Source of the DNA: Microbacterium kunmingense
GTDB taxonomy: Bacteria; Actinomycetota; Actinomycetes; Actinomycetales; Microbacteriaceae
DNA length: 64,000 bases
Direction of reading: 5' to 3'
Assembly: GCF_023155745.1 (NCBI RefSeq)
Contig: NZ_JAKNUS010000007.1
Location: 62,001 to 126,000, forward strand
Position numbers and translations under genes: made by a program. The number at the start of each line of letters is the position of its first letter. Position 1 is the first letter of the stretch. Under the pieces are notes generated by a model, which was not told the DNA's origin, ran no database searches, and saw only the letters and a list, made by a program, of their open reading frames with translations. Shown here in pieces: positions 35,841 through 57,206 of the stretch.

Positions 35841-35883
35841 CCGGCGGTCTTCGCGCGCCCCGCGGACTTGTAGCGTGGAGGTC

Positions 35884-36612
35884 ATGTCGACGCGCTCACC
35901 CTGGACCTGCATCCTGTGGGATGTCGACGGCACCATCATCGACGCGTCGGTCGGCATCCTCCGCCGCCTCACCATCACCCTCGAGCACTTCGGCAAGCCC
36001 GCACCCACGCGCGAGGAACTCGCCCACTGGATCGGCCCGCCGATGTACGAGTCGTTCCAGGTGAACGTGGGGATGACGCCGGCCGAGGCCACCGAGGCCG
36101 TGGCCTTCTACCGCACGCTCGGGAAGCAGGACGGCTACACCACCGACGCGCGGCTCTTCCCCGGCATCGCCGAGATCATCCACGACGTCCACGCCGCGGG
36201 CATCCCGCAGGCGACCGCCAGCTCCAAACCCGAGGTGCAGGTCGTCGCCCTCATGGACCACTTCGACCTCTCACCGCTCTTCACCGCCATCGCCGGGGCG
36301 ACCCCCGACGAGAAGACGCTCAGCGCCAAGTCCGACATCGTCGCCGAGGCGCTCCGCCGCCTGGAGGCTGCCGGGGTCGACACCGACCGGCCCGTGCTCG
36401 TGGGCGATCGCCACCACGACATCGAGGGCGGAGCCGAGCACGAGGTGCCCGTCATCTTCGTGACCTGGGGCTTCAGCTGGCCCCACGAGGCCGAGGGTGC
36501 CCAGGCTGTCGTCTCGGATGCGGCGCAGCTGCGCCGGCTCCTCCTCGTCTCCGACGACGACGCGGCCGCAAGCGACTCCGCCGCGAACGACCCCGCCGGC
36601 AGCGACGGCTGA
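35884..36612 (+). CDS. HAD family hydrolase, phosphoglycolate phosphatase-like
   Basis: The 242-residue protein carries HAD motif I LWDVDGTIIDAS near residues 11-22, motif II ATASSKPE near 106, the lysine region DEKTLSAKSD and motif IV VLVGDRHHDIEGG near 174. A cap domain lies between motifs I and II. The acidic C-terminus (SDDDAAASDSAAND) is disordered. The substrate is a small phosphomonoester of unknown type. TAGCGT (35871-35876) ends seven bases before the ATG and the short GGAGG in between would allow both leaderless and leadered reading. Confidence 0.9.
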   Translation: MSTRSPWTCILWDVDGTIIDASVGILRRLTITLEHFGKPAPTREELAHWIGPPMYESFQVNVGMTPAEATEAVAFYRTLGKQDGYTTDARLFPGIAEIIHDVHAAGIPQATASSKPEVQVVALMDHFDLSPLFTAIAGATPDEKTLSAKSDIVAEALRRLEAAGVDTDRPVLVGDRHHDIEGGAEHEVPVIFVTWGFSWPHEAEGAQAVVSDAAQLRRLLLVSDDDAAASDSAANDPAGSDG

Positions 36613-36623
36613 GCGAGAGCGCC

Positions 36624-37910
36624 ATGACCGAGCAGGCAGACGACCTCCTCCGCTGGGTGATCCCTGCCGCCGTCGTGTTCGGCGTCACCGCGCTCGTCGT
36701 CGTCGCGGGCCTCATCGCGCTCCGGCGCTCGCGCCGATCGCCCAAGGCGCGTGCGGCCGCCGAGGCGGCGCGGAACGAGGCCGGTCGGGCCCTCGTGCGC
36801 CTGGACGACGCCGTCGACGATCTCGACGTCGAGGTGAGCCTTTCGGGGGCGCTGTACGGCGGCGACGCTCCGATGACCCTCCGCCGCGCCCGGATGACCG
36901 CGCAGCACGTGCGCGACGACGGATTCGAGCAGTACCGACGCCTCGCCGAGCGACTCGAGGCCGGCGAGGAGGCGGCGCGGGTGCGCCGCACGGCCGAGAC
37001 GATCACGCGCCGCGTCGAGACGGCCCTGCGCACCGTCGCGGACGCCCGCGCCGCCCATGCCGCGTGGGTCACCTCGCATGTCTCGGCGGGCGATCAGGTC
37101 CGCTCGGCGCAGGCACGACTGGCCGAGGTGCGCGCCGCGATGGGCGATCCCGAGGCGCTCATCTCGCAGCTCGCCCGCTTCGATGAGCGCGAATTCCAGG
37201 ATGCCGCGACCGCGGCCCGCGCCGCCGTCACCGAGGCCGACGAGGCCGAGGAGCGCCTCGCCGAGGCGTCGCGGTCGGCGGCCGACCCGAGCCGAAACGC
37301 CCTGGCCGACCTCGCCGCGGGTGAACGGGCCCTCCGCCGCGCCGAGGCCGACGCCCGGACGCTCGAGGAGACCTATCGCCTCATCACCCAGGCGTCGCAG
37401 GCCCTGCCCGACGAGTTCGCGTCGGCGCGCGGGGCGCTGCGTGCGGCGACGGCGATCCGGGCGAAGCTCGAGCCCGCCGACGCCGAGCGTCTCGGGGGCG
37501 AGATCCGCGCCGTCGCGGCATCCCTCGACGCCCTCGAAGCCGGCGCCGCCCGGCGCCCGACCCACACGATCGGCGAGATCGCGCGGCTGCGCGACCGGCT
37601 CGACGCGGCGCTCGGCGACGCGCGCACCGCGCAGCAGCGCCTGAGGGGTGCGCGCACGGCGCTCCCCGGCACCCTCGCGGCGGCGCGCAACGGCGTCGCC
37701 CTGGCCGAGGCGGCGATGACGGGAGTGCGCGCCGGCGCCGATGCCCGCGCACGTCTCATCTCGGCGCAGCGCGACCTCGCGGCGGCGCGTCAGGCGCAGG
37801 ATCCCGTCGAGGCACTCGACGCCGCCCGGCGCGCGCTCCGGCATGCCGAAGACGCGCAGGCGCTCGCGCAGTACGCCGCGAACACGGGTGCGGCCGGCGA
37901 TCCCGAGTGA
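36624..37910 (+). CDS. Unknown single-pass membrane protein with long coiled coil
   Basis: The 428-residue protein has one membrane helix (about 10-30: WVIPAAVVFGVTALVVVAGL) and then about 390 residues of almost pure helix, rich in Ala, Arg, Glu, with leucine or alanine heptads, no Cys and very few aromatic residues. The order (helix, basic stretch, LVRLDDAVDDLDVEV, GGDAPMTLRRARM) resembles the region after the membrane helix in some actinobacterial TPM-domain proteins, but the TPM domain itself is missing. It lies 11 bases after the HAD gene and is followed by the MprF-like gene. A scaffold or envelope-spanning role is inference. Confidence 0.65.
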   Translation: MTEQADDLLRWVIPAAVVFGVTALVVVAGLIALRRSRRSPKARAAAEAARNEAGRALVRLDDAVDDLDVEVSLSGALYGGDAPMTLRRARMTAQHVRDDGFEQYRRLAERLEAGEEAARVRRTAETITRRVETALRTVADARAAHAAWVTSHVSAGDQVRSAQARLAEVRAAMGDPEALISQLARFDEREFQDAATAARAAVTEADEAEERLAEASRSAADPSRNALADLAAGERALRRAEADARTLEETYRLITQASQALPDEFASARGALRAATAIRAKLEPADAERLGGEIRAVAASLDALEAGAARRPTHTIGEIARLRDRLDAALGDARTAQQRLRGARTALPGTLAAARNGVALAEAAMTGVRAGADARARLISAQRDLAAARQAQDPVEALDAARRALRHAEDAQALAQYAANTGAAGDPE

Positions 37911-37939
37911 GGTCGCGCCCCCTCGCTAGGGTGAGTGCC

Positions 37940-40057
37940 ATGGCGGGGGCGGGCGACGGGGCAGGCGGCACCACGACGGAGGATGCCGCGGGCGCGGCGC
38001 CGCGCGCGTCGCATCCGGTCTTCCGGGTCATCGGGCGCATTCCCGCCACCCTGAGCTTCGTCGCCCTCATCCTCGCGGCGGGGGTGATCTGGCAGGGGCT
38101 GTGGCGACCGTTCGAAGACGCCGACCTCTACGACACGGTCGCGTACGGTCTCCCCGCCCTGCTCGAGGGCCGATGGTGGACACCGGTCACCGGCACCTTC
38201 TTCGTCAACCAGCCGTGGGTCTACCTCTTCACGATCGCCGGATTCTGGGGCATGGCGTACCTGGAATATCACCGCGGCACGCGTGTCGCCTTCGCGTACT
38301 TCTGGATCGGGCAGCTCTTCGCCGTGTGCGCGACGGCGCTGCTGCTGTGGTTCGCGGCGCTGCTGCCCTGGGAATGGGCGCAGACCGAGGCGGCCGCGCT
38401 CGATGTGGGCGCCTCGGGCGGCACCATGGCGTGCATCGCGGCCGCGGTGGGTCTGTTCCCCCCGCCCTGGCGGGTGCGCGGGTGGCTCGTGCTGCTCGGC
38501 TTCGTCTTCGTCGCGCTGCTGTTCTGGGGAGCCCTCCCCGACCTCGAGCATGCCGTGGCGGTCGTGCTCATCCTCTTCGTCGACCGATCGCTGCGGGTGC
38601 AGCGCATCACGGTCCGCGAGCAGCGACTTCTCGCCTTCGTGTCGATCGTCGTGCTCGGCGTCATCCAGATCGCCCTCATCATCGTCCCGACCAACGGGCC
38701 GTTCGGGCCCACCGAGCCGGTCTCGGGCGGGTTCTTCGACGTCGCGCTCGACACGATCGTCATCGCCGTGATCGCCAACGGGCTGCGGCTCGGTCGGCGG
38801 TGGGCGTGGGTGCTCGGCCTGATCCTCGGCGCGCTGAACGTGCTCGTGGGCGTGCTGATCGTCGTCGCGATCGTCCTCAGCAGCGAAGCGCAGGTCGAGG
38901 TCGTGATCGACGGCGAGACCGAGATCGGTCTGGTGTCGGCGGCGCTGTGGCTGATGCTCCTGATCTACCTGGTCTGGGTGCGCGCGGCCTTCCGCGCGAA
39001 GCCGCGACGGGGTCTCGGCGCCACGCCCGCACCGACCGTCGCCGAGGTGAAGGACATCATCCGCGCCGACGGCGGCGGCACGCTGTCGTGGATGGCGACG
39101 TGGGAGGGCATGGCCTACGCGCGCACCACCGCGGGCGTCGTGCCGTATCAGCGGCACCTCGGCACGGCGATCGCGCTCGGAGACCCGCTCGGGCCGGAGG
39201 AGAAGCGCGCGACCTCGGTGCGTGAGTTCGCCGATGCGGCCGAGCGCGCGGGCCTCATCCCGTGCTTCTTCAGCGCCGGGGAGGCGACCCGCGCGGCGGT
39301 TCCCGAGGGATGGCGGAGCCTCGTCGTCGCCGACGACACGATCGTCGACCTCCCCGGCCTGCAGTTCACCGGCAAGGCCTGGGGCGCCGTGCGCTCGTCG
39401 CTGAACCGCGCCGAGCGTGAGGGCATGACCTTCCGCATGACACGGCTCGGCGACGAACCCTGGGGTGTGCAGGCGCAGCTGCGCGCGATCTCGGAGATGT
39501 GGGTCGGCGACAAGGGTCTTCCCGAGATGCGCTTCACCCTCGGGACGCTCATCGAGGCCGCAGACCCCGAGGTGCGCCTCGCGCTGGCCCTCTCGCCCGC
39601 GGGCGACGTGGACGGCTTCCTCTCCTGGCTGCCCGTCTATGGTGCGGGTGGGAAGGTGCGGGGGTGGACCCTCGACCTCATGCGGCGTCGGGAAGGCGGC
39701 TTCGGTCCGGTGATGGAGTTCCTCATCGGATCATCCGCGCGCCACTTCGCCGATGAGGGCGCGGCCGTGCTGTCGCTGTCGGGTGCGCCGCTGGCCCACG
39801 AGAATCCGGCCGATGCCGGTGTCATCGCCGACCTCACCGACCGCCTCGCCCAGATGCTCGAGCCCGTCTACGGCTTCCGCTCCCTGCACCGCTTCAAGCA
39901 GAAGTTCAACCCGCGCTACGAGACGATGTACCTGCTGTACCGCGACGAGGGCGACCTGTCGCGGATCGCCGCCGGGCTCACCCGCGCCTTCCTCCCCGAC
40001 GCGACGTTCCGGCAGTTCGCCGGCGCCGGACTGGAGCTGGTGCGCGGAAAGGACTGA
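37940..40057 (+). CDS. Rhomboid-like/phosphatidylglycerol lysyltransferase-like (MprF, DUF2156) fusion
   Basis: The 705-residue protein has an N-terminal rhomboid-like part (about 40-220): RWWTPVTGTFFV, LEYHRGTRVAFAY, VGASGGTMA with Ser159 at the position of the rhomboid nucleophile, and LEHAVAV with His204 at the position of its partner. Several more helices (about 220-330) lead to the cytoplasmic DUF2156 catalytic domain (about 345-700): GVVPYQRHLGTAIALGDPL, WGAVRSSLNRAEREGM, MEFLIGSSARHFADEG, RFKQKFNPRYETMYLLY. DUF2156 domains transfer aminoacyl groups from tRNA to phosphatidylglycerol. Start ATG 37940 lies seven bases after the TAGGGT -10 (37927-37932). Whether the rhomboid part is an active protease is unknown. 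Confidence 0.85.
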   Translation: MAGAGDGAGGTTTEDAAGAAPRASHPVFRVIGRIPATLSFVALILAAGVIWQGLWRPFEDADLYDTVAYGLPALLEGRWWTPVTGTFFVNQPWVYLFTIAGFWGMAYLEYHRGTRVAFAYFWIGQLFAVCATALLLWFAALLPWEWAQTEAAALDVGASGGTMACIAAAVGLFPPPWRVRGWLVLLGFVFVALLFWGALPDLEHAVAVVLILFVDRSLRVQRITVREQRLLAFVSIVVLGVIQIALIIVPTNGPFGPTEPVSGGFFDVALDTIVIAVIANGLRLGRRWAWVLGLILGALNVLVGVLIVVAIVLSSEAQVEVVIDGETEIGLVSAALWLMLLIYLVWVRAAFRAKPRRGLGATPAPTVAEVKDIIRADGGGTLSWMATWEGMAYARTTAGVVPYQRHLGTAIALGDPLGPEEKRATSVREFADAAERAGLIPCFFSAGEATRAAVPEGWRSLVVADDTIVDLPGLQFTGKAWGAVRSSLNRAEREGMTFRMTRLGDEPWGVQAQLRAISEMWVGDKGLPEMRFTLGTLIEAADPEVRLALALSPAGDVDGFLSWLPVYGAGGKVRGWTLDLMRRREGGFGPVMEFLIGSSARHFADEGAAVLSLSGAPLAHENPADAGVIADLTDRLAQMLEPVYGFRSLHRFKQKFNPRYETMYLLYRDEGDLSRIAAGLTRAFLPDATFRQFAGAGLELVRGKD

Positions 40058-56324: not shown

Positions 56325-57206
56325 TCAGAAGTACAGCACGGGCGGCACCAGCAGCAGCGCCAGCAGTCCGACGGTGAGCGTGATCAGCAGCGCGATTTGC
56401 AGAGGTCGGCGCGAGCGCGCTCGCGTCTGGGTGAGGATGACCGCGACGAGCAGTCCCGCGATCAACCCGCCGACGTGCGCCTGCCAGGAGATGTTGAACC
56501 CCGGGATGAATCCGATCACCAGGTTGATGCCGAGGACGATCGCGATCCCCGTCACGGGCGCACCGAGGTGACGACCGATGATCAGCAGGGCACCGAAGAG
56601 GCCGAACACCGCACCCGATGCGCCGACGACCGGCGTGCCGAACGACAGCAGCGCCACCGCCACCGAGCCGCCGAGGGTGCTGATGAGGTAGAGGGCGATG
56701 AAGCGCCACCGGCCGAGGAGCGGTTCGAGACTGCGCCCGATGAGCCAGAGCGCGAGCATGTTCAGACCGATGTGCCAGAAGCCGGAGTGCACGAGCGACA
56801 CCGTCAGCAGGCGCCACGGCTGGAAGACTCCGAACGCCTCAGGGTAGAGGGTCGGCGCCCAGAACGACAGGGTGTCGGTGACCGTCCCGCCGAACCCGGG
56901 GATCAGCGAGATCAGATAGACCAGCGCGGTGATGCCGATGATCGCGTAGGTGGCGAGCGGTCGGGTGTCGCCGACGGCCACGGTCGCGGGGCGTCGGGCC
57001 CACCGCCGCTCGGCCTTCTTCTGCGCGGGAGTGCGTGAGGCCTGCTGCTGCGCGAGGCACTCGGGGCAGATCACGCCGACGGGCGCCTGGATCTGGCACT
57101 CCGGGCAGATGGTGCGCAGGCACCGCTGACACAGGACGAAGCTCTGCCGATCGGGATGCCGGTAGCAGAAGTTGTCGCTGTTGCGACGAAGGTCGTCGGA
57201 GCTCAC
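56325..57206 (-). CDS. Rhomboid intramembrane protease with N-terminal zinc-ribbon
   Basis: The 293-residue protein begins with a zinc-finger-like module (about 14-50: CYRHPDR, LCQRCLRTICPECQIQ, VICPECL). Six or seven membrane helices follow, with HSGFWHIGLNM (about 140-150), catalytic Ser197 in GASGAVFG and His244 in WQAHVGG. It cleaves unknown substrates in the membrane. The GTG start lies 23 bases after the ppiA stop, so the two form an operon in the order ppiA-rhomboid; this pairing is widely conserved in actinobacteria next to crgA. Confidence 0.93.
   Translation of the reverse strand: MSSDDLRRNSDNFCYRHPDRQSFVLCQRCLRTICPECQIQAPVGVICPECLAQQQASRTPAQKKAERRWARRPATVAVGDTRPLATYAIIGITALVYLISLIPGFGGTVTDTLSFWAPTLYPEAFGVFQPWRLLTVSLVHSGFWHIGLNMLALWLIGRSLEPLLGRWRFIALYLISTLGGSVAVALLSFGTPVVGASGAVFGLFGALLIIGRHLGAPVTGIAIVLGINLVIGFIPGFNISWQAHVGGLIAGLLVAVILTQTRARSRRPLQIALLITLTVGLLALLLVPPVLYF

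Follow-up and report, generated by a model that had tools for sequence, protein, structure and literature searches.

A gene of Microbacterium kunmingense raises the question of what a rhomboid-like membrane domain would do in front of a lipid aminoacyltransferase. It lies in a 64,000-nucleotide stretch of contig NZ_JAKNUS010000007.1 (the window; source genome G000, 3.5 Mb in 28 contigs). The original prediction, read from the DNA alone, was that the two parts are joined in one protein, which is supported by profile alignment, fold prediction and a match to the Pfam family PF09924. The open frame has alternative starts, either GTG at 37907, which overlaps the 3′ end of the upstream frame (37910), or ATG at 37940, and its stop is at 40057. 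The Ser of the GASG motif and the His of TM6 are Ser170 and His215 counted from the GTG, the numbering used here, and Ser159 and His204 counted from the ATG. The best named homologous locus, with 94% identity, is that of Microbacterium sp. AK009.

Homologues were taken from genome contigs (80 of 99 relatives kept) and from up to 30 loci of a family draw (199 genomes, 88 of them with a match). The window's own gene (both L001 and L002) and L088, which is short, were left out of the alignment, and removal of L029-L031, whose N-terminal domains were unalignable, reduced the 109 aligned proteins to the 106 used for counting. The features of the locus are:

37907..40057, + strand: fusion gene, 716 aa; rhomboid-fold domain, synthase-type TM module and LPG_synthase_C
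38036..38590, + strand: rhomboid-fold six-TM domain, residues 44-228 (hhalign E 6e-7, with controls; VIA Z 16 to GlpG)
38213..38233, + strand: residues 103-109 (PWVYLFT), where rhomboids carry HxxxN; the motif is missing here, and the conserved residues are Pro103 and Tyr106
38264..38278, + strand: E120-G124, equivalent of GlpG E166/G170 (ExxxG), each residue invariant (106/106)
38402..38422, + strand: D166-V-G-A-S170-G-G, GxSG-like motif starting TM4 (Ser170 codon 38414-38416)
38540..38551, + strand: D212-L-E214-H215, TM6 histidine motif (His215 codon 38549-38551)
38612..39031, + strand: TM7-TM10, residues 236-375, akin to the TM regions of actinobacterial PF09924 proteins and not to rhomboids
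39068..39940, + strand: LPG_synthase_C (Pfam PF09924), residues 388-678, of the aminoacyl-tRNA-dependent lipid aminoacyltransferase family

The C-terminal part is a lipid aminoacyltransferase domain with its own membrane module

LPG_synthase_C was the sole Pfam match of the fusion protein. It covered profile positions 7-298 of 298 with E 5.9e-61 and 206.6 bits (cut-off 27.5), and the family was matched by all 37 members of the family alignment (A1). Residues from about 365-375 to 700 matched solved aminoacyl-phosphatidylglycerol synthase domains (L-PGS/A-PGS-type) in VIA-align with Z about 27-29, and the sequence match of the domain to these structures had E 1e-22. LDLMR and YxFxxLxxFKxKF, which we take to be conserved core motifs of the aminoacyl-phospholipid synthase domain, aligned with 4v36, 5vrv and 4v34, and 23 C-domain positions that we chose were each kept in 104-106 of the 106 homologues. 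From these matches we infer that the domain aminoacylates phosphatidylglycerol or diacylglycerol from aminoacyl-tRNA on the cytosolic side.

We compared the four helices that precede this domain, TM7-TM10, with the TM regions encoded by PF09924 genes at nine other actinobacterial loci (eight distinct). hhalign aligned them with E 3.7e-5, against 0.13 for the reverse control. The rhomboid part did not match the same TM regions (E 0.024), nor did TM7-10 match canonical rhomboids (E 0.056). Since TM7-10 resemble the TM regions of other synthases, the rhomboid domain stands at the place of MprF Subdomain 1; the architecture is that of a synthase with a synthase-type membrane stub and a rhomboid domain ahead of it.

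Like MprF (7duw, 7f47, 9goe), the fusion protein has a multi-helix membrane region followed by a C-terminal aminoacyltransferase domain. It matches MprF structures as well as the NCBIfam model bifunc_MprF, the latter over residues 302-693 with 145.3 bits, under the 600-bit cut-off. In contrast to MprF, however, it has no match to PF03706 (LPG_synthase_TM, Subdomain 1), and a rhomboid-fold domain is found there instead. LysX and other actinobacterial PF09924 synthases share with it the synthase-type TM module and LPG_synthase_C; unlike LysX (NCBIfam model, 110 bits, under the 742-bit cut-off), it lacks a lysyl-tRNA synthetase domain and has the added N-terminal rhomboid domain. As judged from its sequence, the protein is an MprF/LysX-family lipid aminoacyltransferase with a rhomboid-superfamily N-terminal membrane domain and four further helices between the two.

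An ordinary MprF flippase domain was rejected as an explanation of the N-terminal part, both on the missing PF03706 and on the rhomboid fold described below. The genome's one PF03706 match sits on a different contig (C5) from the fusion gene (C26).

The N-terminal domain has a rhomboid fold

We aligned a profile of the N-terminal domain (residues 36-235, 106 rows) with a profile of canonical rhomboids made from 23 actinobacterial sequences, which had been selected from 31 loci by a motif filter. The two aligned over 142 columns with hhalign E 6.1e-7 and probability 92. With GlpG added, E was 4.6e-7, and Ser170 was paired with GlpG Ser201 and His215 with GlpG His254. As controls, ten profiles with shuffled columns gave E 0.2-0.86, and a reversed one gave 0.083.

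AlphaFold2 modelled the whole protein with a mean pLDDT of 84 (37 sequences) and the N-terminal domain alone with 88 (21 sequences). In the model Ser170 opens helix 170-182, at the start of TM4, and His215 lies within helix 210-226 (TM6). VIA-align placed residues 44-227 of the full model on GlpG with Z 16.2 and an rmsd of 2.9 over 160 residues; the model of the N-terminal domain gave Z 16.1 and 2.9 over 161 residues. Among the best 50 entries for the latter, the first 38 were all GlpG, iRhom1/2 or Derlin-1 (Z 10.7-16.1), the next having 7.4, and everything above Z 8 among the VIA-align matches listed was a rhomboid-superfamily protein. Foldseek with the N-terminal domain alone returned no match at E ≤ 0.001 (best E 1.9e-2); the first 34 rows listed were all GlpG, with probability 0.99-1.00. 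With the full-length model, the C-terminal domain filled the best 50 of 457 Foldseek matches, and no rhomboid was among them. As a single sequence, the fusion protein matched no rhomboid family of Pfam; PF01694 had no match at E ≤ 1, nor was it one of the 15 families listed for the A1 members (n=37).

The N-terminal domain is a member of the rhomboid superfamily, and not a canonical rhomboid protease. The GASG Ser and the His had been picked out in the letters as forming a rhomboid-like helix pattern; hhalign, AlphaFold2 and VIA-align bear this out, and the rhomboid core is present in the model. The domain resembles the pseudoproteases iRhom1/2 and Derlin-1 in that it has their fold (Z 15.7, 14.1, 10.7) and misses parts of the protease machinery, but it differs from them in retaining Ser and His, in being bacterial and in being joined to a lipid enzyme.

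A chance occurrence of GASG and His in an unrelated helical bundle was rejected by the profile, shuffle and fold tests.

Ten helices were predicted for the protein. With the N terminus inside, the inside loops carry 13 Lys+Arg and 3 Asp+Glu, and the outside loops 2 and 13, respectively. Given this orientation, the charge counts predict a cytosolic synthase and a Ser/His site close to the outer face. For LysX2, a mycobacterial relative, a part of PMC8974105 reports the MprF-like domain outside.

The domain departs from canonical rhomboid proteases

GlpG and the PF01694 proteases resemble the N-terminal domain in the six-TM fold, the Ser starting TM4, the TM6 His and ExxxG. The fusion protein, however, is without HxxxN and the TM6 GxxxG, and has Asp166, Asp212, Glu214 and a fused enzyme. 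In the hhalign register, where a one-residue slip is possible, GlpG H150 and N154, oxyanion residues whose role is treated in part of PMC3690538, correspond to V105 and T109. Only 9 of the 106 homologues have His at position 105 and 2 have Asn at the variable position 109, so that alignment and counts agree with the original prediction, which had not found the HxxxN region with its Asn clearly present. Tyr106 is kept in 103 of 106 and, given the one-residue slip, might take the oxyanion role. The TM6 GxxxG (GlpG G257/G261) is absent as well: Gly occupies position 218 in 8 and position 222 in 2 of the 106, against 24 of 24 in the canonical set. Because 23 of the 24 canonical rows were picked by script for HxxxN, GxSG and the TM6 His, only positions outside these motifs count fairly in such comparisons. 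Among the at most five commonest residues per position of the canonical set (n=24), no acidic residue occurs at the positions of D166, D212 and E214.

We consider it unlikely that the domain is an active intramembrane protease, in which Ser170 and His215 would cleave a membrane protein; Tyr106 or backbone amides would supply the oxyanion site, and the cleavage would perhaps be coupled to lipid charge. Such an activity would fit the superposition of Ser and His on GlpG S201 and H254, their places in TM4 and TM6 of the model and their joint conservation (below). The missing HxxxN and GxxxG and the added acidic residues, however, count against a canonical protease, as does the lack of a PF01694 match, and two canonical rhomboids are already encoded in the genome.

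Ser and His are mostly retained or lost jointly

Among the 106 homologues, Ser170 was kept in 102, His215 in 103, Asp166 in 103, Asp212 in 99, Glu214 in 102, Glu120 in 106 and Gly168 in 105; Gly171, which follows the Ser, was kept in 84. Ser and His occurred jointly in 102; all 102 of these had Asp166, 99 had Asp212 and 101 had Glu214. The complete Asp166/Ser170/Asp212/Glu214/His215 module was found in 98 of 106. The four exceptions to joint Ser/His were L089 and L010-L012, the latter from three genomes of the same family and with all five module residues changed. When 38 more distant fused proteins were included (n=144, the alignment of L197, L198, L233 and L242 being uncertain in this count), 112 had both residues, 27 neither, 4 His only and 1 Ser only.

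In L089 Ser170 is replaced by Glu and Asp212 by Gln. Its contig is labelled Stenotrophomonas maltophilia, but the fusion gene on it is of Microbacterium type and groups with Microbacterium in the tree, so that assembly contamination is probable. In L163 (G457; another family of the same class) Thr replaces Ser170, and Asp and His are retained.

We built a tree from C-domain sequences only, which thinning at 85% identity had reduced to 85 rows; its root is not fixed, and the placement of L028, which has a very long branch, is not trusted. Of the 24 rows that have neither Ser nor His, two are the L010/L011 pair (support 100/100), and the other 22 belong to a single clade of 24 rows (support 96/98) that holds divergent paralogues of the family. 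The loss label required 3 changes on the tree, against 21 on shuffles. Loss is a simpler reading than gain, since canonical rhomboids have both residues and many aligned Rhomboid_2 proteins (PF20401) show D-x-G-x-S and D-x-x-H. The Ser and His named in the original prediction are, therefore, not freely lost; they are mostly retained or lost jointly, with no free drift, and the losses are clustered.

In the divergent clade L224-L243, whose rhomboid-derived domain has itself diverged, D-x-Y-R or a similar sequence mostly stands at the D-L-E-H of the window's protein. The YR recalls the YRxxY lipid motif of MprF described in part of PMC8131360, possibly by coincidence.

These patterns bear on whether the domain is inert in both catalysis and transport, that is, an anchor, dimerisation or positioning module for the synthase with conserved residues that are structural, a reading that we regard as rather improbable. 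It accords with the divergent clade, which retains the fused domain mostly without Ser/His, and with the finding, in a section of PMC8131360, that the MprF membrane region helps to position the catalytic domain. However, the joint retention of Ser and His argues against a plain dead anchor, and retention or loss of Asp, Glu and His en bloc is unusual for a mere scaffold. TM7-10 alone, moreover, could anchor the synthase, which is presumably what the related TM region does in other PF09924 proteins.

Alternatively, the Ser/His/Asp set might form a lipid-ester hydrolase that acts on the aminoacyl-lipid on the outside, one protein both making and unmaking the modification. This is a long shot. 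Ser, His and the nearby Asp/Glu are kept as a unit beside a domain family that makes aminoacyl esters, and an acidic pocket would fit a cationic head group; but the substrate is putative, and we know of no rhomboid-fold esterase.

A possible role in lipid handling

The reading that we favour, tentatively and at somewhat under an even chance, is that the rhomboid domain has a lipid-handling role, by membrane thinning or by translocation of the aminoacyl-lipid, and is not a canonical protease. The cytosolic C-terminal domain would charge phosphatidylglycerol (or diacylglycerol) using aminoacyl-tRNA. The rhomboid domain, as a functional stand-in for MprF Subdomain 1, would thin or distort the neighbouring bilayer and help the cationic lipid to reach or stay in the outer leaflet. 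Asp166, Ser170, Asp212, Glu214 and His215 may line a polar, acidic pocket that opens to the outside and in which the lipid head group would be bound or processed; its acidity would suit a cationic group. That such a re-tooled Asp-Ser-Asp-Glu-His site itself acts on lipids, translocating or hydrolysing the aminoacylated phospholipid of its own synthase, is conceivable, although we would sooner expect that it does not.

A lipid-side role is suggested by the position of the domain, which is that of Subdomain 1 in MprF, described in part of PMC8131360 as translocating lipids, and by two further precedents. DedA domains, a fold with scramblase members, are reported in part of PMC11980842 to be fused to MprF soluble domains; the same source describes the Pseudomonas aeruginosa MprF as scrambling lipids and, in simulations, thinning and deforming the membrane. 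Membrane thinning is also called a hallmark of the rhomboid family, pseudoproteases included, in parts of PMC12615303 and PMC8641752.

Several observations weigh against a lipid-handling role. No rhomboid scramblase was visible among the literature matches listed, which counts against translocation, and a site in which Ser and His are retained jointly looks catalytic. The separate PF03706 protein of the genome could move the lipid. The topology is a prediction, and the outside location of the MprF-like domain reported for LysX2 in part of PMC8974105 would differ from it. Most members of the divergent clade have the fused domain but not Ser/His, so any translocation would not need these residues.

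This combination of domains appears to be undescribed, and it may represent a new means of handling modified lipids. No description of a rhomboid-aminoacyltransferase fusion, of a rhomboid with DUF2156 or of PF20401/Rhomboid_2 itself was found in the open-access literature, an absence that is weak evidence. Rhomboid was not named among the literature matches listed on aminoacyl-phosphatidylglycerol or LysX, nor Microbacterium among those listed on MprF-type lipids. Two papers on MprF, PMC8131360 and PMC11980842, do not use the word rhomboid in their main texts, nor does the rhomboid review PMC12615303 mention MprF; in part of PMC6656915, rhomboid and MprF-like appear as separate proteins. The abundance of inactive rhomboids is, in a portion of PMC12615303, a long-standing question only partly answered. 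The covalent tie to a lipid enzyme, at the position of a domain described as a lipid scramblase, makes a lipid-directed, non-proteolytic role of a rhomboid directly testable, and the natural variants with and without the Ser/His module are built-in controls. The fusion is a different way of equipping an actinobacterial cationic-lipid synthase; if the domain does act on lipids, it would be a second, unrelated solution to the synthase-plus-translocator design of MprF and, to our knowledge, the first rhomboid with a lipid substrate.

Distribution and genomic context

Strong matches (E ≤ about 1e-58) covering the N-terminal domain were found in 27 of the 199 family-draw genomes. Of 246 Actinomycetota genomes drawn, 17 matched the N-domain profile (A2; E ≤ 0.001) and 58 matched PF09924, and six genomes (G000, G079, G457, G224, G380, G200) had the rhomboid part and PF09924 in one open frame, which may be a lower bound because few candidates per genome were scored. 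In G331 and G463, only the TM7-10 part of A2 matched beside PF09924. An order-level draw gave A2 matches in 35 of 149 genomes, some in TM7-10 only. The distribution of the fusion is patchy and reaches beyond the class (G380).

Rhomboid_2 (PF20401) resembles the N-terminal domain in the D-x-G-x-S and D-x-x-H of many members that align over that stretch. It was found in 10 of 198 genomes, and 16 of its 17 rows in the phylum draw lie in open frames of 227-553 codons; the seventeenth is the fused protein of G380. Matches to PF20401 in the family of the fusion protein were weak (10 of 37 A1 members at E ≤ 1, best 5.8e-5), with none in the window's protein or elsewhere in G000.

Upstream of the fusion gene, at 35875-37910 (+), genes for a HAD-type hydrolase and a membrane-type protein (no Pfam match) run into it with a 4-base overlap at the GTG, and the three are possibly an operon. 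A scan for Sigma-70-type promoters found 0, and defence-system models had no match. HAD, membrane-type, GntR and GNAT neighbours each occurred, at whatever position, in 29-31 of 80 loci, and contig ends truncate several of the loci; with neighbours in only about 30 of 80, genomic context was set aside as uninformative about function.

The window also contains a canonical rhomboid at 56325-57206 (-), with HSGFWHIGLN, GASG and AHVGG (PF01694, E 1.3e-33), and PF01694 matches once more in the genome. G374, G320 and G201 (L216-L218), which belong to one genus, have Rhomboid_2 genes at a distance of about 6-12 kb from a PF09924 frame that is long (1103-1184 codons) and LysX-like in its length; G298, of the same genus, does not show this arrangement.
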